In this document: one piece after another, positions 52,716 through 63,298 of the stretch
Position numbering within the stretch: position 1 is the stretch's first letter
How the letters are laid out: each line of letters opens with the position of its first letter
Origin: an uncultured Spirochaetaceae bacterium
GTDB taxonomy: Bacteria; Spirochaetota; Spirochaetia; Treponematales; Treponemataceae
Length of the DNA: 64,000 nt
Direction of reading: 5' to 3'
Assembly: GCA_902802305.1 (NCBI GenBank)
Contig: CADCLG010000009.1
Coordinates: forward strand, 1 to 64,000
Program-made: the position numbers and the translations under genes
The notes under the pieces: generated by a model
What the model was told of the DNA's origin: nothing
What the model saw: the letters and a program-made list of their open reading frames with translations, nothing else
Database searches by the model: none

Positions 52716-52757
52716 AAAACTGTCTGTCAGGCTCTGGCTTTACAGACAGTTTTTTTT
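52716..52757 (+). terminator. rpsD terminator
   Basis: AAAACTGTCTGT, a 14-base loop and ACAGACAGTTTT form a twelve-pair stem followed by a run of T, 25 bp after the rpsD stop. Confidence 0.9.
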
Positions 52758-52783: not shown

Positions 52784-52827
52784 GATAGATAATGATTCAG
52801 GGATAGATGATAGATAGATGATGATTC
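52784..52827 (+). repeat. Direct repeats upstream of the aromatic operon promoter
   Basis: GATAGATAATGATTC (52784-52798) and GATAGATGATGATTC (52813-52827) match at 14 of 15 positions, 29 bp apart, ending two bases before the -35 box. They may bind an activator or regulator. Confidence 0.45.
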
Positions 52828-52829
52828 TA

Positions 52830-52857
52830 TTGACAAAAACGCTAAAATATAGATAAT
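52830..52857 (+). promoter_or_regulatory. Promoter of the aromatic amino-acid operon
   Basis: A perfect -35 TTGACA (52830-52835) and -10 GATAAT (52852-52857) are spaced by 16 bp, giving a start near 52864, about 40 bases before the leader peptide ATG. Confidence 0.75.
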
Positions 52858-52905
52858 TATTTCTAGTCGGTTTTATCAAAAAAAAACCTTTTGCTTGGAT
52901 GTAAA

Positions 52906-53031
52906 ATGATTTCTATAAATATTTTTACTAACAAACGTAAACCTTTCTCCCTTGTTGCAAGTTTCTTTGCAGGCTTTTATTCATTTTATTATTATTACTT
53001 TCGCAACAAACTTCATTCCGATAAGGCGTAG
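52906..53031 (+). CDS. Phe/Tyr-rich leader peptide of the aromatic operon
   Basis: A 41-codon open frame ending TAG at 53029-53031. It holds seven Phe and five Tyr; residues 20-32 read FFAGFYSFYYYYF, ten aromatic residues out of 13. It lies between a strong promoter and an intrinsic terminator directly upstream of pheA, exactly like leader peptides of ribosome-mediated attenuators (E. coli pheL). Starved of charged tRNA-Phe or tRNA-Tyr, a ribosome would stall on these codons and let transcription continue. The ribosome site (GGATG) is weak. No protein function is expected. Confidence 0.85.
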   Translation: MISINIFTNKRKPFSLVASFFAGFYSFYYYYFRNKLHSDKA

Positions 53032-53095
53032 AAAGTTATGTAGGTTATGTAACAGAAACGGTTCTATTCTTTATCGGATAGAGCCGTTTTTTTTT
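53018..53095 (+). terminator. Attenuator terminator of the aromatic operon
   Basis: ACGGTTCTAT (53058-53067) and ATAGAGCCGT (53078-53087) form a ten-pair stem with one G-T pair, followed by nine T. It lies 32 bp before pheA. TCCGATAAGG at 53017-53026, in the end of the leader peptide, can pair with CTTTATCGGA around the terminator loop (53069-53078), a possible competing structure. Confidence 0.85.
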
Positions 53096-53126
53096 AGGCA
53101 GATTTTTAGAAAATATTGGAGGATAT

Positions 53127-54221
53127 ATGACAGAATTGGAAAAAGCCAGAAACGATATCAACGAAATAGACCGTCAGATGGCTGCTCTTTTTGAAAAGCG
53201 AATGCAGGCTGCGTCAGAAGTTGCTGCTTATAAAAAGCAGAATGGAATGCAAATCTTTGATGCTGTCCGCGAAAAAAATCTTCTGGAAAAAAATGTCTTA
53301 TTAATTCATAATCCAGAACTTCAGTCATACTATCTTCAATATCAGCAGGGCTTGATGGATGTTTCAAAACGTTATCAGCACAAGCTTCTGGAAGGAACAC
53401 GTATTGCTTACAGCGGAATTGAAGGTGCCTTTGCAAATATTGCTGCCAAAAAAATCTTCCCAGATGGAACCCTCCTTTCCTATCCTGATTTCAAATCTGC
53501 TTATGATGCTGTAGAAAAAGGTGAATGTGATTTGGCTGTTCTTCCAATAGAAAATAGTTTTGCCGGTGAAGTTGGACAGGTTACCGATTTAATGTTCCGT
53601 GGAAATCTTTTTGTAAATGGCGTTTATTCTCTCCCTATTTCGCAAAATCTTCTTGGTGTAAAGGGCACAACATTTTCAACAATAAAACAGGTTGTAAGTC
53701 ATCAGCAGGCTCTGGATCAGTGTGCGGGCTATATTAAAAATCATGGGTATAAAACAGTTTCTGCAAGTAATACCGCTGTTGCTGCCAAAGAAGTTGCAGA
53801 ATTAAATGATGTGACTGTTGCAGCTATTGCCAGTATTGAAACTGCAAAACTCTACGGTCTTGAGGTTATTGACCACGATATAAATGAAAACCTTACAAAT
53901 ACAACCCGCTTTGCAGTTTTTTCAAAAGTAAAAGAAAATATTATCAATACCGAAAGCATTAGTACCTTTATTATGATGTTTACCGTTCGTAATGAATCTG
54001 GTGCACTTGCAAAAGCAATAAATGCGATTGGTGATAATGGCTTCAACATGCGTGTTTTGCGAAGTCGTCCCTTAAAGGATTTAGCCTGGCAGTATTATTT
54101 TTATGTTGAAGCAGAAGGTGATTATAATTCTGATTCTGGTAAAAAAATGTTGAAGGAGCTTTCTGAACGTTGTGAAATGCTTAAGGTTTTAGGCTCTTAT
54201 TCATTGAATCAAAAAATCTGA
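53127..54221 (+). CDS. pheA: Bifunctional chorismate mutase / prephenate dehydratase
   Basis: Makes phenylpyruvate from chorismate. Residues 1-85 are an AroQ-type chorismate mutase (ARNDINEIDRQMAALFEKRM). Residues about 92-275 are the prephenate dehydratase (IAYSGIEGAFANIAA, IENSFAGEV, and the catalytic NTTRF). Residues about 283-360 are an ACT domain (ESGALAKAINAIG, LRSRPLK) for feedback by Phe. GGAGG precedes the ATG. First structural gene of the aromatic operon, 32 bp after the attenuator, which puts the phenylalanine branch enzyme under direct control of its own product. Confidence 0.95.
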   Translation: MTELEKARNDINEIDRQMAALFEKRMQAASEVAAYKKQNGMQIFDAVREKNLLEKNVLLIHNPELQSYYLQYQQGLMDVSKRYQHKLLEGTRIAYSGIEGAFANIAAKKIFPDGTLLSYPDFKSAYDAVEKGECDLAVLPIENSFAGEVGQVTDLMFRGNLFVNGVYSLPISQNLLGVKGTTFSTIKQVVSHQQALDQCAGYIKNHGYKTVSASNTAVAAKEVAELNDVTVAAIASIETAKLYGLEVIDHDINENLTNTTRFAVFSKVKENIINTESISTFIMMFTVRNESGALAKAINAIGDNGFNMRVLRSRPLKDLAWQYYFYVEAEGDYNSDSGKKMLKELSERCEMLKVLGSYSLNQKI

Positions 54222-54246: not shown

Positions 54247-55296
54247 ATGATTGTACCGGTTAATTTAGGAAAAGATAGTTACGAAGTTGTAATAGAGCGT
54301 GGAGTATTAAATCGTGCAGAAAAAGAAATAAATCTGGATCGTCGGGTTCTTATTATTTCTGATTCTGGTGTGCCTTCTGAATATGCAGAATTGATTGCTT
54401 CAAAATCAAAAAATCCAGTTATAAGTGTATTTGAACCTGGCGAAGACCATAAAAGTCTAGAGACTGTGCAAAAAATGCTTCAGATTATGCTTGATAATAA
54501 TTTTACCCGCAAGGATTGTGTTGTTGCAGTCGGTGGTGGAGTTGTTGGTGATTTAGCCGGATTTACTGCTTCCTGTTATATGCGTGGTGTTGATTTTTAT
54601 AATATTCCAACGACAGTTTTAAGTCAGGTTGATTCCTCGGTTGGTGGAAAAACAGGCGTTAATTTTGGCGGGGTAAAAAATATCGTAGGTGCCTTCTATC
54701 AGCCTAAAAAAGTCCTTATCGATGCAGATGTCCTTAAAAGCTTGCCAAAACGTCAGATTGCAAACGGTTTGTGTGAAGCTCTTAAAATGGCAATGACTTT
54801 TGATAAAGAAACTGTAGAAATCTTCAAAAAGGAAAATCCTTTTGAGCAGGTGGAAGTTTTAATCCAAAAGTCAGTTCAAATCAAAGCCCGCGTTGTAGAA
54901 GAGGATGAAAAAGAAAGTGGACTTAGACGTGTATTGAACTTTGGCCATACTCTTGGACATGGAATAGAACTTAATACTGATGGAAAATTATATCATGGCG
55001 AATGTGTAGCAATCGGAATGCTGCCAATGTGCTCTGACAAAGTTCGCAGTGAACTTCTTCCTTTGATAAAAAAACTTGAGGTTCCTGTCAGCTGTAGTTT
55101 GGATATAGAAAAAGCTTGCCGTTCAATCAGTCATGATAAAAAAGCAGAAAAATCAATAATAAAATGCGTTGTTGTAAATGAAACCGGCACTTTTGAAATG
55201 CAGGATTTTACCGTAGAGCAGCTTAAAGAAAAACTCCAGACAGTTTGTGAAAATGTGATACCTGCTGTTTCCGCTTGTAATACTTGTAATAAATAA
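54247..55296 (+). CDS. aroB: 3-dehydroquinate synthase
   Basis: Second step of the shikimate pathway: DAHP to 3-dehydroquinate, NAD- and metal-dependent. The 349 residues show EPGEDHKSLETVQKM, VAVGGGVVGDLAGFTAS, MRGVDFYNIPTTVLSQVDSSVGGKTGVN and the zinc-binding VLNFGHTLGHGIE, all diagnostic. The last 15 residues are Cys- and Ala-rich (SACNTCNK). AAGGAAA precedes the ATG. It lies 25 bp after pheA and 14 bp before aroC, in the middle of one operon. Confidence 0.96.
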   Translation: MIVPVNLGKDSYEVVIERGVLNRAEKEINLDRRVLIISDSGVPSEYAELIASKSKNPVISVFEPGEDHKSLETVQKMLQIMLDNNFTRKDCVVAVGGGVVGDLAGFTASCYMRGVDFYNIPTTVLSQVDSSVGGKTGVNFGGVKNIVGAFYQPKKVLIDADVLKSLPKRQIANGLCEALKMAMTFDKETVEIFKKENPFEQVEVLIQKSVQIKARVVEEDEKESGLRRVLNFGHTLGHGIELNTDGKLYHGECVAIGMLPMCSDKVRSELLPLIKKLEVPVSCSLDIEKACRSISHDKKAEKSIIKCVVVNETGTFEMQDFTVEQLKEKLQTVCENVIPAVSACNTCNK

Positions 55297-55310: not shown

Positions 55311-56408
55311 ATGAAAAACTCAATCGGCGAACATCTTACAGTTACTCTTTTTGGTGAAAGTCACGGCCCTTATATCGGCGTTGTTCTTGATGGACTTGCC
55401 CCTGGAATCCCTGTAGATAAAGCTTTTATAAATCATCAGCTGGATTTACGCAGACCAAAAGGAAAAATCTCAACTTCCCGCGTAGAAAAGGATGAATATA
55501 TTTTTGCCAGCGGAGTTTTTAATGATTTTACAACAGGAACTCCCCTTACAATTCTTATTCCAAATCAGGTTCAACACAGCAAAGATTATGAAAAAACAGC
55601 AATGCTCCCACGTCCTGGACATGCAGATTACACGGCAGAAGTAAAGTATCACGGTTTTCAGGATTACAGAGGCGGCGGACATTTTAGCGGTAGACTTACA
55701 GCGGCAATAGTAGCTGCTGGAGGAATAGTGATTCCAGAACTTGCAAAAAAGAATATAAAAATCGGCACTCATATTCAGATGCTTGGCGGAATAAAAGATC
55801 GCGATTTTGAAGATTACGAAAAAGACATTCAGACTTTGTCCCAAACAGATTTTGCAGTCTTGGATGAGCAGAAAGCCGCAGAAATGAAGGCCCTTGCAGA
55901 AAAAGTTGCCAGCGATGGTGACAGCGTCGGTGGAGTTCTGGAAACTGTAATCACAGGGCTTCCTGCTGGTTTGGGTGAACCCTGGTTTGGAACTTTGGAT
56001 GGACTTTTATCCTATGCAATGTTCAGTATTCCGGCAATTAAGGGAGTTCAGTTTGGCGCAGGCTTTGATTTGGTAAATCATTTTGGAAGCGAATATAACG
56101 ATGCCTTTAGAATGGACGGCTCTAAGGTCGTAACTTCAAGCAATAACAACGGCGGTATAAACGGCGGTATTTCAAACGGAATGCCGGTTCTTTTTAGATG
56201 TGCAGTAAAACCAACCCCTTCAATTTACAAAGAGCAGGATACCATCGATATGAAGCAGAAAACAAATGCAAAGCTGCAGATTCAGGGAAGACATGATCCG
56301 GCAATCATCCACCGGGCAAGAATTGTAGTAGACAGCATGGCAGCTCTTGTTATTTATGATGCCTTGGCCGGTCGCTACGGAACGGATTTTTTCGGAGGAA
56401 ATAAATAA
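55311..56408 (+). CDS. aroC: Chorismate synthase
   Basis: Last step to chorismate: EPSP to chorismate with reduced FMN. The 365 residues begin with the family signature GEHLTVTLFGESHGPYIGVVLDG, then RPGHADYTAEVKYHGFQDYRGGGHFSGR, SVGGVLETV and the C-terminal GRHDPAIIHRARIVVDSMAAL. A GGAGG site precedes the ATG, and the stop overlaps the aroEK start (TAATG), indicating translational coupling. No separate flavin reductase gene is beside it. Confidence 0.97.
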   Translation: MKNSIGEHLTVTLFGESHGPYIGVVLDGLAPGIPVDKAFINHQLDLRRPKGKISTSRVEKDEYIFASGVFNDFTTGTPLTILIPNQVQHSKDYEKTAMLPRPGHADYTAEVKYHGFQDYRGGGHFSGRLTAAIVAAGGIVIPELAKKNIKIGTHIQMLGGIKDRDFEDYEKDIQTLSQTDFAVLDEQKAAEMKALAEKVASDGDSVGGVLETVITGLPAGLGEPWFGTLDGLLSYAMFSIPAIKGVQFGAGFDLVNHFGSEYNDAFRMDGSKVVTSSNNNGGINGGISNGMPVLFRCAVKPTPSIYKEQDTIDMKQKTNAKLQIQGRHDPAIIHRARIVVDSMAALVIYDALAGRYGTDFFGGNK

Positions 56409-57658
56409 TGGAATACGGTCTTATCGGCGCAAAATTAGGTCACAGCTATTCAAAAGATATTCACAATCAGATTGGTGATTATAAATATGAACTTAAAGAA
56501 ATTGCTGCAGAAGATATTGATTCCTTTATGAAAATACACGACTTTAAGGGAATAAATGTAACAATTCCTTACAAGCAGACAGTAATTCCTTATCTTGATG
56601 AAATTGATGATGCTGCAAAAGAAATTGGAGCTGTAAATACAATCGTAAATAAAGGTGGAAAACTTTTTGGTTATAATACAGATTTTATCGGTTTAAAAAG
56701 ACTTATTCTTTCTCAAAATATTGAGCTTGCTGATAAGACGGTTTTAATTTTAGGAACTGGCGGAACAAGTAAAACCGCTCGTGCAGTTGCAAAATCCCTC
56801 AAGGCAAAAGAGATTTTAATTGTTAGCCGCAAGAGTGGAGAAGGGGTGATTACTTATGAAGAAGCAGCCAGTAAGTATAAAAATGCTCAGATTATTATAA
56901 ACACAACTCCTTGCGGAATGTTCCCGAATATAAATGATTTTCCAATTGATGTTACAGCCTTTCCTAAGCTCGAAGGTCTTATTGATGTAATTTACAATCC
57001 TCTCAGAACTCAGCTTGTTCTCCGTGCACAGGAGCTTGGAATAAAAGCTTCTGGTGGAATGTACATGCTTGTTCAGCAGGCAATTGCAGCCGCAGAATAT
57101 TTCTTTGACCGCCCGCTTGAGCCTTCAAAAGCCGATGAGATTTTTAATTCTTTACTTGCAGATAAACAGAATATTATTCTGGTGGGAATGCCTGGCTGCG
57201 GAAAATCTACAGTTGGCAAAAAACTTGCAAAGCTGCTGGGAAAAGATTTTTTTGATACAGACGAATTGATTCAGCAGCAGGAAAATATGCATCCTTCTCA
57301 AATAATTACTCAGCGGGGTGAAGAGGCTTTCAGAAATATTGAATCTAAGATTTGCGAAGAAATGGCGGTTAAAACCAATGCTGTAATTTCTACAGGTGGC
57401 GGTGCAATTCTTCGTAAGGAAAATGTAATTCATCTTAAAAATAACGGAATCATTTTCTTTATTGACAGGAAGCTTGAAAATATCTGTCCGACTGGTGACA
57501 GACCGCTTTCTAATTCACGGGAAAAATTGCAGGCAGTTTATGATAAACGCTATCCTATTTATTCTGCCTGCTGCGATTATAAAATTGAATCAGACGAAAA
57601 TATGAATCACACAATAGATAAAATTATAAAATTGTTTGGAGGTAAAAATGAAAATTAA
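56408..57658 (+). CDS. aroE-aroK: Fused shikimate dehydrogenase - shikimate kinase
   Basis: One polypeptide of 416 residues carries two steps. Residues 1-250 are shikimate dehydrogenase: GLIGAKLGHSYSKDIHN, NVTIPYKQTVIPYLDE, GAVNTIVNKGGKLFGYNTDF and an NADP-binding ILGTGGTSKTARAVA. Residues about 254-416 are shikimate kinase: Walker A GMPGCGKSTVGKKLA, FDTDELIQ and STGGGAIL. The start overlaps the aroC stop by one base and the end overlaps aroQ by 11 bp. The reactions are consecutive in the pathway (dehydroshikimate to shikimate to shikimate-3-phosphate), so the fusion may help channelling. Confidence 0.95.
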   Translation: MEYGLIGAKLGHSYSKDIHNQIGDYKYELKEIAAEDIDSFMKIHDFKGINVTIPYKQTVIPYLDEIDDAAKEIGAVNTIVNKGGKLFGYNTDFIGLKRLILSQNIELADKTVLILGTGGTSKTARAVAKSLKAKEILIVSRKSGEGVITYEEAASKYKNAQIIINTTPCGMFPNINDFPIDVTAFPKLEGLIDVIYNPLRTQLVLRAQELGIKASGGMYMLVQQAIAAAEYFFDRPLEPSKADEIFNSLLADKQNIILVGMPGCGKSTVGKKLAKLLGKDFFDTDELIQQQENMHPSQIITQRGEEAFRNIESKICEEMAVKTNAVISTGGGAILRKENVIHLKNNGIIFFIDRKLENICPTGDRPLSNSREKLQAVYDKRYPIYSACCDYKIESDENMNHTIDKIIKLFGGKNEN

Positions 57659-58082
57659 GGTTATAAATGGACCAAACATCAACATGCTGGGAATCCGTGA
57701 GCCTGGAATCTATGGTTCAGAAAATTACGAAACCTTGTGTAACAATATAAAGGATTTTGCTAGAAATAATAATATCGACGTAGAATTGTATCAGTCCAAT
57801 CATGAAGGTGATTTAGTTGATCAAATCCAAGCCTGCTACGGAAAAATTGACGGTATTGTAATAAATCCGGGAGCTTACACTCACACAAGCATTGCAATTC
57901 TGGATGCGGCAAAGGCTGTAAAAATCCCGGTTGTTGAAGTTCATATTTCAAAAGTTGAAGAACGCGAAGATTTCCGTCAGGTAAGTTATATTCGTGCGGC
58001 TTGTGTAAAGACAATCACAGGTCACGGAATTAACGGTTATATAGAAGCAATGCAGTTTCTTTTGGAAAATTACAAAAATTAG
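57648..58082 (+). CDS. aroQ: 3-dehydroquinate dehydratase, type II
   Basis: Third step: 3-dehydroquinate to 3-dehydroshikimate. The 144 residues fit the dodecameric type II family: KVINGPNINMLGIREPGIYGSENYE, SNHEGDLVDQIQ, INPGAYTHTSIAILDA and VEVHISKVEEREDFRQVSYI. The ATG at 57648 has GGAGG just upstream and overlaps the end of aroEK; a TTG four codons earlier overlaps the ribosome site itself and is rejected. It is in the middle of the aromatic operon. Confidence 0.95.
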   Translation: MKIKVINGPNINMLGIREPGIYGSENYETLCNNIKDFARNNNIDVELYQSNHEGDLVDQIQACYGKIDGIVINPGAYTHTSIAILDAAKAVKIPVVEVHISKVEEREDFRQVSYIRAACVKTITGHGINGYIEAMQFLLENYKN

Positions 58083-58103: not shown

Positions 58104-59306
58104 ATGATAATTAATCCTTCAAAAGCAAAAGGAAAAATGACAGCCCCTCCTTCTAAAAGCATGGCTCACAGACATTTAATTTGTGCAGCTCTGGCTCAGG
58201 GAAAAAGCGTTATTCATAATATAGATTTATCAGAAGATATAAAAGCCACTTTGAGCTGTATTGAGCAACTTGGCGTAAAAAGTGAAATTGCAGGAAGTAC
58301 GATTACAGTTTATGGCAATGAAGTTCTAAAATGTTCAGTTTCTGATAAGAGAATATTTAACTGTAACGAAAGTGGAAGTACTCTGCGCTTTTTTATTCCT
58401 CTTGCAATGCTTAGCGGAAGTAAATCCTTTTTTATCGGCAGCGAAGTTTTAATGACTCGTCCTCTTTCTGTATATGAAGATATCTGCCGCAAACAGAATA
58501 TTCGTTTAGAGCACAAGAATGGAATTGCAATTGAAGGAAAATTAAAAGCTGATGATTTTGTAATTCCTGGAAATATAAGCAGTCAATTTATTACAGGACT
58601 TTTATTTGCTCTTCCTCTTTTAGATAAAGATAGTACAATCACTCTTACAGAATCTGTTGAAAGTCGGCCATATATAAATATGACCTTACAGGTTCAAAAA
58701 GAGTTTGGTATTAGAGCTGAATGGCATGGAGAAAACAAGCTGTATATTCCAGGAAATCAAAAATACAGGTCTACTGACACTTTTGTAGAAGGGGATTATT
58801 CAAATGCAGCTTTTTTTGAAGCCCTTAATACTTTGGGTGGTGAAATTAAAATTGAAGGCTTAAAGCCTGACAGCTTGCAGGGAGATAAAATATATATTCA
58901 GTATTTTGAAGAACTTAAAAAAGGTTTTGCAGCTCTTGATATTTCTGACTGTCCTGATTTGGGACCGGTTCTTTTTACTCTTGCAGCTGCTTTTCATGGT
59001 GGAGAGTTCACAGGAACAAAGCGTTTAAAAATTAAGGAAAGTAATCGCGGCCAGGTTATGTGTGAGGAACTTGCCAAGTTTGGAGTAAAAACTTTGCAGG
59101 AAGAAAACAGAATTATTATTTATGGTGGCGAACTTCATCGTCCAGAGGAAAAAATTTGCGGACATAATGATCACAGAATTGTAATGTCTATGGCGGTTTT
59201 GCTTACAATCACTGGCGGAGAAATTGTAGGCACGGAAGCAGTACGAAAAAGTCTTCCTGATTTTTTTGAAAGAATTAGAAAGCTTGGAATAGATTTTCAG
59301 TATTAA
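58104..59306 (+). CDS. aroA: EPSP synthase (3-phosphoshikimate 1-carboxyvinyltransferase)
   Basis: Sixth step: joins phosphoenolpyruvate to shikimate-3-phosphate. The 400 residues have the N-terminal PPSKSMAHRHLICAALAQG, the NCNESGSTLRFFIPLAM motif, LLFALPLL and the C-terminal HNDHRIVMSMAVLLTI. The family's usual (P)GSKS start is PSKS here, within normal variation. The gene is 21 bp after aroQ with an AGGA site. The sequence reads as intact and functional, without signs of disruption. Confidence 0.95.
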   Translation: MIINPSKAKGKMTAPPSKSMAHRHLICAALAQGKSVIHNIDLSEDIKATLSCIEQLGVKSEIAGSTITVYGNEVLKCSVSDKRIFNCNESGSTLRFFIPLAMLSGSKSFFIGSEVLMTRPLSVYEDICRKQNIRLEHKNGIAIEGKLKADDFVIPGNISSQFITGLLFALPLLDKDSTITLTESVESRPYINMTLQVQKEFGIRAEWHGENKLYIPGNQKYRSTDTFVEGDYSNAAFFEALNTLGGEIKIEGLKPDSLQGDKIYIQYFEELKKGFAALDISDCPDLGPVLFTLAAAFHGGEFTGTKRLKIKESNRGQVMCEELAKFGVKTLQEENRIIIYGGELHRPEEKICGHNDHRIVMSMAVLLTITGGEIVGTEAVRKSLPDFFERIRKLGIDFQY

Positions 59307-59334: not shown

Positions 59335-60192
59335 ATGGATTGGATTACAAAACAGAATATTTTGATTGTCGGATTAGGCCTTATGGGCGGAAGTTATGCA
59401 AAAGGACTTAAACGAATCGGATATAATCTGATGGCAATTGATAAAAACTCAGAATCAATACAATACGCTCTGGAAAATGACATTATTGATGAAGGTGATG
59501 ATTTCCCGAATCCAGAACTTATTAAAAAGGCTGATGTAGTTATTTTTGCATTATATCCTCATGTCTTTATTGAATGGATAAAGGAAAATCAAAAATATTT
59601 TCAGTCAGGAATAAAAATCACTGATGTAACTGGTGTAAAAAGCAATATAGTTTATGAGATACAGAATATTCTCCGCGAAGATGTTGAGTTTATTCCAGCT
59701 CATCCAATGGCAGGCCGGGAAGTTTATGGAGTTCAGAATAGCGATGACAGAATCTTCCATAATGCCAACTACATTGTAACTCCAACTTCAAAAAATACAG
59801 TTGAAGCAATTGAATGGTGTAAGGATTTGGGCCGTCTTTTGGGCTTCAGAAAGATTTCTATTCTAACCCCAGAAGAGCATGACCAGATGATTGGTTTTGT
59901 TTCTCAGTTAACACACTGTATTGCAGTTGCATTAATGGACTGCAGCGACAACAGTCATATTGTTGATTATACGGGAGATTCCTTCCGCGATTTAACGAGA
60001 ATTGCAAATATAAATGAAAAAATGTGGAGTGAGCTTTTCTTAATGAATAAAAAGCCCCTGCTTGAGCAGATGGACACTTTTATTAAAGAAATGCAGACTT
60101 TGCGTGATTTGTTAAATAATGAAGATAGAGACGGCTTGTGTGAAAAAATGAAACTTTCTACACAACGACGTTCTTTATTCAATAAAAAATAA
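59335..60192 (+). CDS. tyrA: Prephenate dehydrogenase
   Basis: Tyrosine branch: prephenate to 4-hydroxyphenylpyruvate with NAD(P). The 285 residues show the Rossmann motif LIVGLGLMGGSYAKGLK, VIFALYPHVFIEW, DVTGVKSNIV and the catalytic His in IPAHPMAGREVYG, with SFRDLTRIANINEKMW at the helical dimer domain. There is no ACT or chorismate mutase domain. AGGAG precedes the ATG. Together with pheA it places both terminal branches under the same attenuator. Confidence 0.93.
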   Translation: MDWITKQNILIVGLGLMGGSYAKGLKRIGYNLMAIDKNSESIQYALENDIIDEGDDFPNPELIKKADVVIFALYPHVFIEWIKENQKYFQSGIKITDVTGVKSNIVYEIQNILREDVEFIPAHPMAGREVYGVQNSDDRIFHNANYIVTPTSKNTVEAIEWCKDLGRLLGFRKISILTPEEHDQMIGFVSQLTHCIAVALMDCSDNSHIVDYTGDSFRDLTRIANINEKMWSELFLMNKKPLLEQMDTFIKEMQTLRDLLNNEDRDGLCEKMKLSTQRRSLFNKK

Positions 60193-60217: not shown

Positions 60218-61246
60218 ATGAATATGGAGTTTGAAAGAAAGCTGGCAATTCCAGCTGAGGTAAAAGAAAGATATCCATTAACTGCAAAGATTAATGATAT
60301 CGTAGAAAAGAAGCGTGCAGAAATTAAGGCAGTTTTTGAAGGACGTTCAGATAAAATGATTCTTCTGATTGGACCATGTTCTGCTGATAGAGAAGATGCC
60401 GTTATTGATTATATGACACGTCTTGTTCCTGTTCAGGAAAAGGTAAAGGACAAAATCCTTCTTGTACCGCGCATCTATACCAACAAACCGCGCACTACAG
60501 GTGACGGCTACAAGGGATTACTTCATCAGCCAGACCCTAATGCAAAACCAGATATGTACAAGGGAATTATTGCAACTCGTTCCATTCACATGCATGCAGT
60601 AGAAGCCACTGGTTTTATTTTTGCAGATGAAATGCTTTATCCCGAGAATCATAAATATATAGATGATTTACTTGGTTATGTTGCAGTAGGTGCCCGTTCG
60701 GTAGAAGACCAGCAGCATCGTCTTACAGCAAGTGGAATTGAAGTTCCTGTTGGAATGAAAAATCCAACCTCTGGTGATTATGCTGTTATGATGAATGCAA
60801 TTCTGGCTGCCCAGCACAAACACACATTTATCTATCGTGGTTGGGAAGTTCATTCTCAGGGAAATCCATGGTCTCACGCTATTTTACGCGGTTCAACAAA
60901 TAAACACGGTAATACAATTCCAAACTATCATTATGAAGATTTAATCCGTCTTTGTGATGTTTACGATGAACGCGAATTATCTAATCCAGCTGCTATTATC
61001 GATACAAACCATTGCAATTCTGGTAAAAATCCTTTTGAACAGCCTCGTATTGTTATGGATGTTCTTCATTCCTGCAAGCATAACGACAGAATCAGAAAGC
61101 TTGTAAAGGGCTTTATGATTGAAAGTTATATAGAAGACGGCTGCCAGAAAGTAAACGAAAATGTTTATGGTAAATCAATTACAGACCCATGCTTAGGCTG
61201 GGAAAAATCTGAAAAATTGATTTATGATATTGCTGAAAAAATCTAA
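60218..61246 (+). CDS. DAHP synthase, class I
   Basis: First step of the pathway: phosphoenolpyruvate and erythrose-4-phosphate to DAHP. The 342 residues resemble AroF/AroG/AroH: LLIGPCSADREDAVIDYM, RIYTNKPRTTGDGYKG, EATGFIFADEML, GARSVEDQQHRLTASG, KNPTSGDYAVM, DTNHCNSGKNPFEQP. The N-terminal feedback segment is present, so a Phe- or Tyr-sensitive enzyme is plausible, but the isotype cannot be told. GGAGG lies 10 bases upstream of the ATG. It is the last aromatic gene before the pyrophosphokinase, although it is first in the pathway. Confidence 0.94.
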   Translation: MNMEFERKLAIPAEVKERYPLTAKINDIVEKKRAEIKAVFEGRSDKMILLIGPCSADREDAVIDYMTRLVPVQEKVKDKILLVPRIYTNKPRTTGDGYKGLLHQPDPNAKPDMYKGIIATRSIHMHAVEATGFIFADEMLYPENHKYIDDLLGYVAVGARSVEDQQHRLTASGIEVPVGMKNPTSGDYAVMMNAILAAQHKHTFIYRGWEVHSQGNPWSHAILRGSTNKHGNTIPNYHYEDLIRLCDVYDERELSNPAAIIDTNHCNSGKNPFEQPRIVMDVLHSCKHNDRIRKLVKGFMIESYIEDGCQKVNENVYGKSITDPCLGWEKSEKLIYDIAEKI

Positions 61247-61308
61247 GTCTTTTAATAGATTTAATTAATTTAGATTTGATTAATGATTTAATTACTTCGG
61301 GATGCTTT

Positions 61309-61968
61309 ATGAAAAGATGTGTGATAATCGGTGCCGCTCAAATACAAAATTATTCAAAAATCAAAAGTTATTTATCTGCTGATGATTTTTGTATTTTTTG
61401 TGATGGTGGCTTGAAACATCAACAACCTTTAGACTTGCATCCTGATTTAATTGTTGGTGATTTTGATTCAGCCGATTTTTATGAGGGACAAAAGACTGCC
61501 GGAAAAGCGCAAGCCGAAATTATAAAGCTTCCCTGTGAAAAAGATGATACCGATGTTTTTTTTGCGGTAAAAGAAGCGGTAAGGCGTGGTTTTGACAATT
61601 TTCTTTTAATTGGAGTAATCGGGCAGAGATTTGACCATTCTTTGTGTAATATCTCTGTCCTGCTTTATTTATACGAAAATAAAAAATCTGCTGTAATTCT
61701 GGACGATTATTCAGAAATGCAAATTATTGGTGCAGAAACTCTTCAACAGCCTGCTGAAATTACTGACACTTATTCTTATTTTTCGCTTATGTGTCCCTTT
61801 GGTGATGTAAGCGGTGTCACTATAAAAAATGCAAAATATCCTCTGGAAAATGCAGAAATAAAATGCAGTTACCAGTATGGAATCAGTAATGAAGTGTTAA
61901 AAGAAAAAACCGCTTCTGTTTTTGTCAAAAGCGGCCTTTTACTCTTAATTAAAATCTTTTCTAATTAG
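61309..61968 (+). CDS. Thiamine pyrophosphokinase
   Basis: Converts thiamine to thiamine diphosphate. The 219 residues show the family patterns FCDGGLKHQQPL, DLIVGDFDSAD, LPCEKDDTDVFFAVKEAVRRG, and LIGVIGQRFDHSLCNISVL. The ATG at 61309 follows CGGGA at ribosome-site distance; a TTG 11 codons earlier is less likely. It may be transcribed with the aromatic operon (62 bp gap, no terminator seen). Its stop overlaps the end of the convergent paaK by four bases. The IorAB enzyme in this window uses its product as cofactor. Confidence 0.88.
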   Translation: MKRCVIIGAAQIQNYSKIKSYLSADDFCIFCDGGLKHQQPLDLHPDLIVGDFDSADFYEGQKTAGKAQAEIIKLPCEKDDTDVFFAVKEAVRRGFDNFLLIGVIGQRFDHSLCNISVLLYLYENKKSAVILDDYSEMQIIGAETLQQPAEITDTYSYFSLMCPFGDVSGVTIKNAKYPLENAEIKCSYQYGISNEVLKEKTASVFVKSGLLLLIKIFSN

Positions 61969-63206
61969 AATCTCTTATCTTCAATTCTTTTTGTTTTCTT
62001 TTCTGAACGTGGAAGTTCACCAATTCCTACAACTTCAACCTTTGGAGTCATGTTGTATTTCTGCTTGAAGATGTACTGAACGCCAAGAGCAACTTCTGCG
62101 CGGTCAACGCCCATTTCTACTTCAACAAAAACAGTCATCTGGTCTTTTCCGTCAACGTGTTCAATTACTGCGCGGTATTCACTTGATGTTCCCGGTACAG
62201 ATTTGATTACGTCTTCAATTGTACTTGGGAAGATAATGTTTCCCTTAACTTTTACCATGTCATCTGAGCGACCGAGAATCTGAGTAATTCTAGGATATGA
62301 GCGGCCACAAGGACATTTTTCTGTTACAAAAGCAGCAAGGTCGTGAGTGCGGAATCTGAATAAAGGTGCACCTTCTTTTACCAAGGTTGTAAGACAGATT
62401 TCTCCAATTTGTCCCTCTGGTACCGGAAGTCCTGTTTCTGGATCGAGGATTTCGATATAAACATAATCATCAAAAATATGCATTCCTGCATCTGATTTAT
62501 CGCAGTTAATACCAATTCCTGGACCGTAACATTCTGTAAGACCGTAAATATCATAAAGTTCAATTCCAAGAATGGTCTGAATACGGTTGCGCATTTTTTC
62601 GCCCCAGCGTTCTGAACCGATTACACCTTTTTTGAGCTTGATGTTTTTAGAAAGATGTCTTGCTTCAATCTGTTCTGCAAGTAATAAAGCATAAGAAGAA
62701 GTTGCGCAGATTACAGTTGCATTTAAATCCTGCATCATCTGAAGCTGCTTTTCTGTGTTACCTGGTCCCATAGGAATAGCCATGGCACCTAATCTTTCAC
62801 AGCCAGCCTGAAAACCTATACCTGCTGTCCACAAACCATATCCCGGTGTAATCTGAATTCTATCTTTGTTTGTAATTCCTGCAAGCTCATAACAGCGGGC
62901 AAACATAATTCCCCAGTCTTCAACATCTTTTTTTGTGTAAGGAATGATTACAGGAGAGCCTGTAGTTCCTGATGATGAGTGAATTCTGACAATTTCTTCT
63001 TCTGGTACGGCTGCAAGACCAAGGGGATAAGCATCACGCAAATCCTGTTTTGAACAGAAGGGAACAAGTTTTTCAAAAGATTCCTGATCCTTAATGTCTT
63101 CTGGATTTACGTTCTTAAAGCGTTCGGTATAAAAAGGGTTTCCGCATGCTTTTACTCTTTTAATTTGTGCGCGGATTTGTTCAAGTTGTTTTTCTGTTAG
63201 TTTCAT
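61965..63206 (-). CDS. paaK: Phenylacetate-CoA ligase
   Basis: Activates phenylacetate (or another aryl-acetate) to its CoA ester with ATP. The 413 residues match PaaK of anaerobes: HSSSGTTGSPVIIPYTKKDVEDW (adenylate-binding loop), GAMAIPMGPGNTEKQL, YDIYGLTECYGPGI, FRTHDLAAF and a C-terminal LGRSDDMVKVKGNIIFPS. In anaerobic bacteria such ligases accompany IOR-type enzymes: acetates to acyl-CoA, then reductive carboxylation to aryl-pyruvate. It has its own strong promoter and is convergent with the aromatic operon. Confidence 0.93.
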   Translation of the reverse strand: MKLTEKQLEQIRAQIKRVKACGNPFYTERFKNVNPEDIKDQESFEKLVPFCSKQDLRDAYPLGLAAVPEEEIVRIHSSSGTTGSPVIIPYTKKDVEDWGIMFARCYELAGITNKDRIQITPGYGLWTAGIGFQAGCERLGAMAIPMGPGNTEKQLQMMQDLNATVICATSSYALLLAEQIEARHLSKNIKLKKGVIGSERWGEKMRNRIQTILGIELYDIYGLTECYGPGIGINCDKSDAGMHIFDDYVYIEILDPETGLPVPEGQIGEICLTTLVKEGAPLFRFRTHDLAAFVTEKCPCGRSYPRITQILGRSDDMVKVKGNIIFPSTIEDVIKSVPGTSSEYRAVIEHVDGKDQMTVFVEVEMGVDRAEVALGVQYIFKQKYNMTPKVEVVGIGELPRSEKKTKRIEDKRF

Positions 63207-63269
63207 TTTCTTCCTCTATTAATTTATAAATAATTCAAAAGGCTGATTATATTTTCATTGTTTCTATAA

Positions 63270-63298
63270 ATAGTAACGCATTAAAAAAAATATGTCAA
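63270..63298 (-). promoter_or_regulatory. paaK promoter
   Basis: On the minus strand TTGACA (63293-63298) and TACTAT (63270-63275) are spaced by 17 bp, about 64 bases before the ATG. A GAGGAAG ribosome site lies upstream of the ATG. Confidence 0.7.

Follow-up and report, generated by a model that had tools for sequence, protein, structure and literature searches.

A probable Phe/Tyr leader-peptide attenuator, with a predicted TrpR-type operator at its promoter, upstream of the aromatic operon of an uncultured treponeme

Introduction

What is a short reading frame, crowded with phenylalanine (Phe) and tyrosine (Tyr) codons and followed by an intrinsic terminator, doing between a promoter and pheA, the first gene of an aromatic operon? 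The question is raised by a stretch of 64,000 nucleotides (hereafter the window) from an uncultured Spirochaetaceae bacterium, namely positions 1 to 64,000 of the forward strand of contig CADCLG010000009.1 (GenBank assembly GCA_902802305.1; genome of 3.5 Mb), in which an initial annotation, made from the letters alone, had proposed ribosome-mediated attenuation at positions 52,830 to 53,126. The analysis described here indicates, on the basis of sequence and folding, that leader, terminator and antiterminator very probably form a ribosome-mediated attenuator reading Phe and Tyr, to which a predicted TrpR-type layer would be added at the promoter. We also somewhat favour a fuller picture, in which tryptophan (Trp) would be read through TrpR and Phe and Tyr through the leader, the codon mix of the leader would track the genes of its operon, and the same module would have been re-used before pheA, aroF and aroC.

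The leader region

The elements between the promoter and pheA are the following.

52830..52857, + strand: predicted sigma-70 promoter, TTGACA - 16 nt - GATAAT (sequence, consensus scoring)
52906..53031, + strand: Phe/Tyr leader peptide frame MISINIFTNKRKPFSLVASFFAGFYSFYYYYFRNKLHSDKA, 41 codons (sequence, relatives)
52963..53001, + strand: run of aromatic codons covering residues 20-32 (13 codons, 5 of them Phe and 5 Tyr)
53057..53095, + strand: predicted intrinsic terminator, 13-bp hairpin at 53057-53088 and nine T (sequence, fold)

The -35-like box (TTGACA, 52830-52835) and the -10-like box (GATAAT, 52852-52857), separated by a spacer of 16 nt, place the predicted transcription start at about 52864 and the predicted 5' untranslated region (UTR) at 42 nt. 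The leader frame opens with the ATG at 52906, upstream of which no clear Shine-Dalgarno sequence was found, and closes with a TAG stop codon at 53029-53031; an alternative TTG start at 52891 would extend it to 46 codons. Residues 20-32 read FFAGFYSFYYYYF, ten of the 13 being aromatic, with four Tyr codons in a row near the end of the run. Of the 1541 frames of 8-70 codons that the two strands of the window contain, no other has 10 aromatics in 13 (next best 8), and the same density is reached by none of 2000 dinucleotide shuffles of 52864-53095. The leader RNA fold, in turn, beats 200 of 200 shuffles (z -4.4).

The promoter and the 41-codon frame are present as the initial annotation had described them, as is the competing pairing it had pointed to, between TCCGATAAGG (53017-53026) and CTTTATCGGA (53069-53078). 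Its terminator also stands, the nine T (53087-53095) lying 31 nt before the pheA ATG (53127).

Two other origins for these elements were considered and rejected. The terminator is not that of the upstream gene, which we take to encode ribosomal protein S4: a separate hairpin and T run (about 52720-52757) follow that gene, and between the gene and the leader terminator there are promoter-like boxes. Nor is the element a T-box or another known RNA family, since no Rfam covariance model matches in the window at its gathering score. In particular, the Rfam Phe leader gave no match in the window (gathering score) or in 14 relatives (expectation value, E, <= 1), and no T-box covariance model matched upstream of the aromatic operon in the window or the 14 relatives. 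Only two T-box signals, both below the gathering score, came up, one on the opposite strand of locus L045 and the other at the far end of L054.

The antiterminator and the proposed switch

The structure that competes with the terminator is made of two strands.

53017..53033, + strand: antiterminator 5' strand TCCGATAAGGCGTAGAA, including the leader stop codon (53029-53031)
53062..53078, + strand: antiterminator 3' strand TTCTATTCTTTATCGGA, i.e. the terminator 5' arm, the loop and the start of the 3' arm

The pairing of TCCGATAAGG with CTTTATCGGA extends through TAGAA/TTCTA into the leader stop codon, giving an antiterminator of 16 bp whose 5' strand spans the final leader codons and the stop codon itself. 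The competing structure had been correctly suspected in the initial annotation, but in incomplete form, the stop codon within it having been overlooked. As a free duplex, with no loop cost, the antiterminator strands reach -22.1 kcal/mol; the terminator hairpin has -17.1 kcal/mol bare and -20.5 kcal/mol with flanking A/U pairs. When nascent RNA exposed to 53078-53084 is folded with a ribosome at codon 21, 24, 28, 31 or 32, the antiterminator probability is 0.97-1.00, and with the ribosome at the stop codon it is 0. Control folds of Escherichia coli pheL likewise depend on ribosome position, and there the upstream pairing persists as far as the U tract when the ribosome stalls early.

A switch of the following kind can be proposed. 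If charged transfer RNA (tRNA) for Phe or for Tyr were short, the ribosome would stall at codons 20-32, and the antiterminator strand, located 5-41 nt beyond the assumed footprint, would be free to pair with the terminator arm emerging from the polymerase, so that the operon would be transcribed. If both tRNAs were plentiful, the ribosome would reach the stop codon and mask the antiterminator strand, and the terminator would form. Three features of attenuators of the pheL/trpL type, namely a leader codon run, an intrinsic terminator and a mutually exclusive antiterminator, are found here by sequence and computation.

Conservation across the genus

For comparison, 200 genomes from the genus were sampled, and a close PheA (E <= 1e-60) is encoded in 47 of them; at each locus, the densest aromatic frame upstream was taken as the leader frame. 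The initial annotation had named as evidence against itself the loss of the aromatic frame where the terminator is kept; this is not what was seen, 34 of the 47 loci having both leader and terminator. Three more loci are cut by contig ends, with a partial leader at L005 and L119 and none at L145. One leader form that is often seen is MIFGITFFTFAFFSFFAFYFFGKRCVVRKA. In the closest sampled relative (G043, locus L002), whose pheA protein is 99% identical, the near-identical leader differs by just one codon, in the Tyr run, and the reading frame is kept.

The structural elements are conserved along with the frame. In 29 of the 34 leaders, no more than 5 of 100 shuffles equal the antiterminator; in 31 there is overlap between its 5' strand and the stop codon, and in 31 that strand is left free by half or more of the aromatic codons. 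Exchanging antiterminator partners between 24 hand-chosen subtypes weakens the pairing from -18.05 (own) to -13.27 kcal/mol (swapped); across the swap sets (39 in all, 32 treponemal, 24 subtypes; kinship not corrected), the mean cost is 3.3-4.8 kcal/mol, and none of 20000 permutations reaches the observed mean. Pair counts were made in two alignments, A2 and A3, holding 18 and 7 of the 34 leaders, respectively. In A2, 92.8% of cells pair, against 36-52% with the partner slid, and the covariation score is above 500 of 500 shuffles; in A3, 85.6% pair, against 40-60% when slid. Taken in this comparative sense, the attenuator is real, and it is likely to work as the initial annotation proposed.

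The start of the leader frame varies in its distance from the promoter. The -10 box of the best-scoring promoter ends at most 9 nt before the leader ATG in 14 of the 34 leaders (L123, L127-L130, L132-L137, L141, L142 and L144), as against 135 of 1700 shuffled sequences, and 10-14 nt before it in 6 further ones. The transcripts of these 14 leaders are likely to be leaderless, or almost so.

A predicted TrpR-type operator at the promoter

The initial annotation, in arguing for attenuation, missed a second element, which overlaps the -35 box and has a counterpart near the end of the window.

52822..52841, + strand: TGATTCTATTGACAAAAACG, a predicted operator of the TrpR type that overlaps the -35 box
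63259..63278: another predicted TrpR operator, located between a phenylacetate-coenzyme A (CoA)-ligase-like gene (61965-63206, - strand) and a divergent aminotransferase gene

The 20-bp site over the -35 box is also present upstream of trpE in this genome. A genome search with TGWTWCTATNNAYARNAACR found four zero-mismatch places, i.e. the pheA promoter, the gap between the phenylacetate-CoA-ligase-like and aminotransferase genes, trpE, and the start of the gene for a 108-residue PF01371 protein; the first three had served, along with sites in relatives, to define the pattern, so that only the match at the PF01371 gene came unprompted. Allowing one mismatch brought in a further trpE site, two sites each at a trpB-like gene and at the gene for a TrpP-like transporter, and one at a gene of the sodium-symporter family, besides three places inside long frames (C9:38030, C16:70911 and C30:2636). 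The analysis kept to these 13 places (0-1 mismatch), matches with up to 2 mismatches being mostly noise (66, as compared with 54 for the reversed pattern). Likely sites of the TrpR regulon outside the window are C14:69350 and 69400, C14:5461 and 5510, C16:24531, C23:49305 and 49348, and C7:78444, and the regulon likely includes trpE, the trpB-like gene, trpR, the genes for the TrpP-like transporter and the sodium-symporter-family protein, and the phenylacetate-CoA-ligase and aminotransferase genes. Under a matrix built from nine non-pheA sites, the pheA operator has the second-best score in the window (19.1 bits), and an operator at p <= 0.01 (letter shuffles) is found in 22 of the 34 leader promoters.

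The genome encodes a TrpR-family protein (PF01371, 63.3 bits; gathering score 27), and homologues occur in 189 of the 200 genus genomes, including 85 of 85 near-complete ones. The ATG of its gene (L165:1187-1513, on C16) lies within the gene's own operator, a few bases downstream of a TATAAT, and the gene is probably both autoregulated and leaderless. This repressor, encoded elsewhere in the genome, would bind the operator overlapping the -35 box whenever Trp is in ample supply. Given that overlap, control is likely two-layered, with Trp acting at initiation and Phe and Tyr at elongation, and one promoter would likely integrate all three aromatic amino acids.

The targets of the protein suggest that it reads Trp. 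The strongest competitor to this part of the proposal is that it senses some other ligand, as does HisR, described in the excerpted text of PMC9413887 as a TrpR-family histidine repressor, so that the promoter layer would not be reading Trp at all. We regard this as unlikely, if far from negligible: the protein falls under the NCBIfam TrpR equivalog cut-off (55.4 vs 67.25 bits), but its predicted sites lie at trpE (two), the trpB-like gene (two), the TrpP-like transporter (two) and trpR itself, whereas near hisG no match to the operator pattern was found. Nor was a Trp or His (histidine) leader seen in the two gaps examined, before trpE (176 nt) and before hisG (77 nt).

Tyrosine codons and tyrA

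Operon context was available for 23 of the 34 leaders, and two of these (L113 and L114) were set aside as their contigs end inside the operon. In the five operons that hold tyrA, the window's among them, the Tyr share of the leader aromatic codons is 0.42-0.62, and in the 16 without tyrA it is 0-0.31; a leaderless tyrA operon, L158, was not entered. The corresponding rank test gives p = 0.0005 with descent not corrected, the tree leaving about two independent contrasts, so that the association of Tyr codons with tyrA is a strong pattern with weak statistics behind it. Since Tyr codons abound only in leaders whose operon holds tyrA, the association lends comparative support to the earlier suggestion of a single leader reading two amino acids.

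The same figures bear on the view that attenuation is genuine but responds to Phe only, the Tyr codons being tolerated substitutions. Leaders of operons lacking tyrA are mostly Phe (Tyr 0-31%), as expected if Phe is the common signal; yet half of the window's run is Tyr, with its four consecutive Tyr codons close to the end, and all five examined tyrA operons with a leader are Tyr-rich (again about two independent contrasts), which makes a Phe-only sensor rather improbable.

Leaders before other genes and in other phyla

When the 200 genus genomes were searched with R1, a covariance model built on the switch, 56 of them had a match at E <= 0.001. Eight matches away from the known leaders were examined, about 25 weaker ones (E 5e-5 to 1e-3) being left out. 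The five at E < 1e-6 are leaders, and the weakest three of the eight (L250, L252 and L253; E 9e-6 to 4e-5) were rejected. Three of the new leaders (L246, L247 and L248) stand before aroF, with MILANIFYAFTFFSFFAFSYWYWGKLNYARNV and two close forms of it, and their promoters have operator-like sites over TTGACA (by eye); a fourth, L249, combines the leader MKKTFYAYSFYYYYFSPVR with a terminator before aroC (by eye), in the genome of the leaderless locus L010; the fifth, L251, lies at a contig end. The L246 leader, before aroF alone, has 7 Phe, 4 Tyr and 2 Trp codons, a mix that would suit an enzyme feeding all three pathways. The attenuator before pheA had been anticipated by the initial annotation, but not these leaders before other aromatic genes, nor those in Bacillota described below.

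A leader at all treponemal prephenate dehydratase genes was rejected after scanning 40 other loci, mostly longer fusions, where a Phe-rich frame was present only at L028, L216 and, weakly, L025. Many species of the genus (L018-L030 and others) have a prephenate dehydratase fusion of about 580-660 residues, mostly leaderless, with an N-terminal part that is presumably like 3-deoxy-D-arabino-heptulosonate 7-phosphate (DAHP) synthase.

Beyond the spirochaetes, the titles of 72 of 80 named loci place them in Bacillota groups, and an aromatic leader candidate (by eye) is present at 35 of these 72. A few of the Bacillota leaders resemble that of the window (FTFARFFAGYYYY), and many belong to a second type (YFYFYF..AMD). 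The gene order at 14 Bacillota leader loci is pheA-aroB-aroC in 12 and pheA-aroC in 1, the remaining 1 ending within aroB. When 36 loci outside Treponema were tested for an antiterminator containing the stop codon, 4 passed, 30 failed and 2 had no recognised terminator; loci of the YFYFYF..AMD class did not pass. In this class (L032, L041, L053, L062, L066 and others, all Bacillota), which also stands before pheA, GCGATGGA in the leader faces TCCACCGC in the terminator, and the variants GCGATTGA/TCAACCGC and GTGATGGA/TCCACCAC look compensatory, in each case by eye.

The PheA tree (97 rows, midpoint-rooted without an outgroup, proteins of <=300 residues excluded) includes 14 of the 34 leader-bearing PheA proteins, and all 14 fall in one group with a support of 99/100. 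Also in this group are L046, a leader locus from Sphaerochaetaceae, and eight rows that count as leaderless, including two from Lachnospiraceae. The treponemal leaderless PheA of L008, L009, L121 and L122 fall among Bacillota PheA, which suggests separate transfers of pheA, and Bacillota leaders of both types also fall among Bacillota.

Weighing the attenuator

Several observations weigh against the two-layered attenuator proposed above. With regard to folding, the full-length window RNA gives the terminator in every fold (mean pair probability 0.99-1.00), and in full-length folds with ribosome-masked upstream RNA the antiterminator never wins; the mechanism therefore requires kinetics, with the antiterminator forming first and persisting. 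In nascent-RNA folds the antiterminator also forms transiently without a ribosome, and it does so even with a hairpin inside the leader frame that is a candidate protector. As to conservation, 10 of the 47 close pheA loci have no leader (L008, L009, L010, L112, L121, L122, L138, L139, L143 and L147). L112, a sister of a leader-bearing locus, has the operon with neither leader nor terminator, and its promoter region differs from those of its leader-bearing relatives; at L125 the leader has a one-base frameshift within a T run but intact antiterminator letters, which could be true decay or a sequencing error. R1 matches 8 of 392 phylum-wide genomes at E <= 1e-5, all within this genus (1 of 166 genera), in a search whose strict filters may let distant forms, such as that of L046, escape. 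Covariation is modest per column: A2 has one pair changed on both sides, A3 has two with a score no better than shuffles, and in the terminator changes are one-sided only. With regard to the promoter, the window operator is palindromic at only 5 of 10 arm positions, a site inside a window gene scores 18.0 bits, close below the 19.1 bits of the pheA operator, and 12 of the 34 leader promoters are without a good operator.

These 12 promoters still have leader and terminator downstream, which also speaks against control at the promoter only, by the TrpR-family repressor, with the terminator causing a fixed partial termination and the frame being incidental. Such an arrangement would account for the operator over the -35 box and for the TrpR-family gene in 189 of 200 genus genomes, but an incidental frame is unlikely to keep an aromatic run, an antiterminator partner and a Tyr content that tracks tyrA, and we consider it very improbable. 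Least credible of all is a functional small hydrophobic or membrane peptide lying upstream of pheA by chance, for, hydrophobic as the peptides are, with a core such as AFFSFFAFYF shared by many relatives, their length, N-terminus and C-terminus differ between subtypes, the recurring features are the aromatic codons and the stop inside the antiterminator (31 of 34), and the same module is found before aroF and aroC elsewhere.

Relation to known systems

The ribosome-mediated attenuator proposed here is close in design to E. coli pheL-pheA, with which it shares a short Phe-rich leader frame, an intrinsic terminator before pheA, an alternative pairing beside the leader stop codon (by eye) and ribosome-position-dependent folding. 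It differs from pheL in that Tyr codons equal Phe codons in the run, the operon also holds tyrA and shikimate genes, the stop codon lies inside the antiterminator, the terminator is favoured at equilibrium, and no Rfam family matches its sequence. The E. coli trp operon has TrpR at its promoter and the trpL attenuator downstream, both reading Trp; the window likewise would have a repressor and an attenuator on one transcript, but its repressor would read Trp and its leader Phe and Tyr. Leaders reading several amino acids are known, e.g. those of ilvG and thr in E. coli.

Among published candidates outside Proteobacteria, the uORFC-13-1 motif (PMC8632094) is, in the excerpted text of that source, a predicted upstream open reading frame with Phe codon(s), a terminator and an aromatic gene (aroF), reported from Acholeplasma and environmental sequences only; it is similar to the window in these respects, but has at least 1 Phe residue where the window has a Phe/Tyr run, and that excerpt describes no repressor site. 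The Leu/phe leader of Lactococcus lactis, a Bacillota leader named for two amino acids (PMC2864571, in part), has no match in the window or in the 14 relatives. Sinorhizobium meliloti trpL, as presented in the excerpt of PMC7298713, is a leader transcript starting at the ATG, like the 14 of 34 genus leaders predicted to be leaderless; it is a Trp leader without transcriptional repression, and differs from the window leader in the latter's predicted 42-nt 5' UTR. The TrpR and HisR repressors covered by PMC9413887 share with the present system a PF01371 protein and 20-bp operators, but a TGTTTCTN6AGAAACA operator and a pheA/tyrA operon as target are not among the features that its excerpt describes. 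According to the part consulted of a 2010 survey (PMC2965389), no leader-peptide system had been known, before its own Firmicutes case, outside Proteobacteria and Actinobacteria, except for the atypical ermC. Among the matches listed in the open-licence literature, with subscription papers mostly outside it, no spirochaete leader-peptide attenuator was found.

The class of mechanism is, then, a known one, and what appears to be new is the phylum, the operon-matched mix of Phe and Tyr codons and the added TrpR layer. A conserved treponemal Phe/Tyr attenuator, with similar leaders in Bacillota, would extend leader-peptide attenuation to spirochaetes; the parallel between Tyr codons in the leader and tyrA in the operon would offer a natural experiment on the evolving specificity of a ribosome-based sensor; and the two layers suggest a compact way of balancing three end products that share chorismate.

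The operon downstream

Nine co-directional genes follow the leader.

53127..54221, + strand: pheA, chorismate mutase-prephenate dehydratase
54247..55296, + strand: aroB
55311..56408, + strand: aroC
56408..57658, + strand: aroE-aroK fusion
57636..58082, + strand: aroQ (type II dehydroquinase)
58104..59306, + strand: aroA
59335..60192, + strand: tyrA, prephenate dehydrogenase
60218..61246, + strand: aroF-type DAHP synthase
61276..61968, + strand: thiamine diphosphokinase, the final co-directional gene

Their spacing suggests a single transcript from pheA to the thiamine diphosphokinase gene, in which case the leader would control the whole operon, with tRNA charging as its signal.
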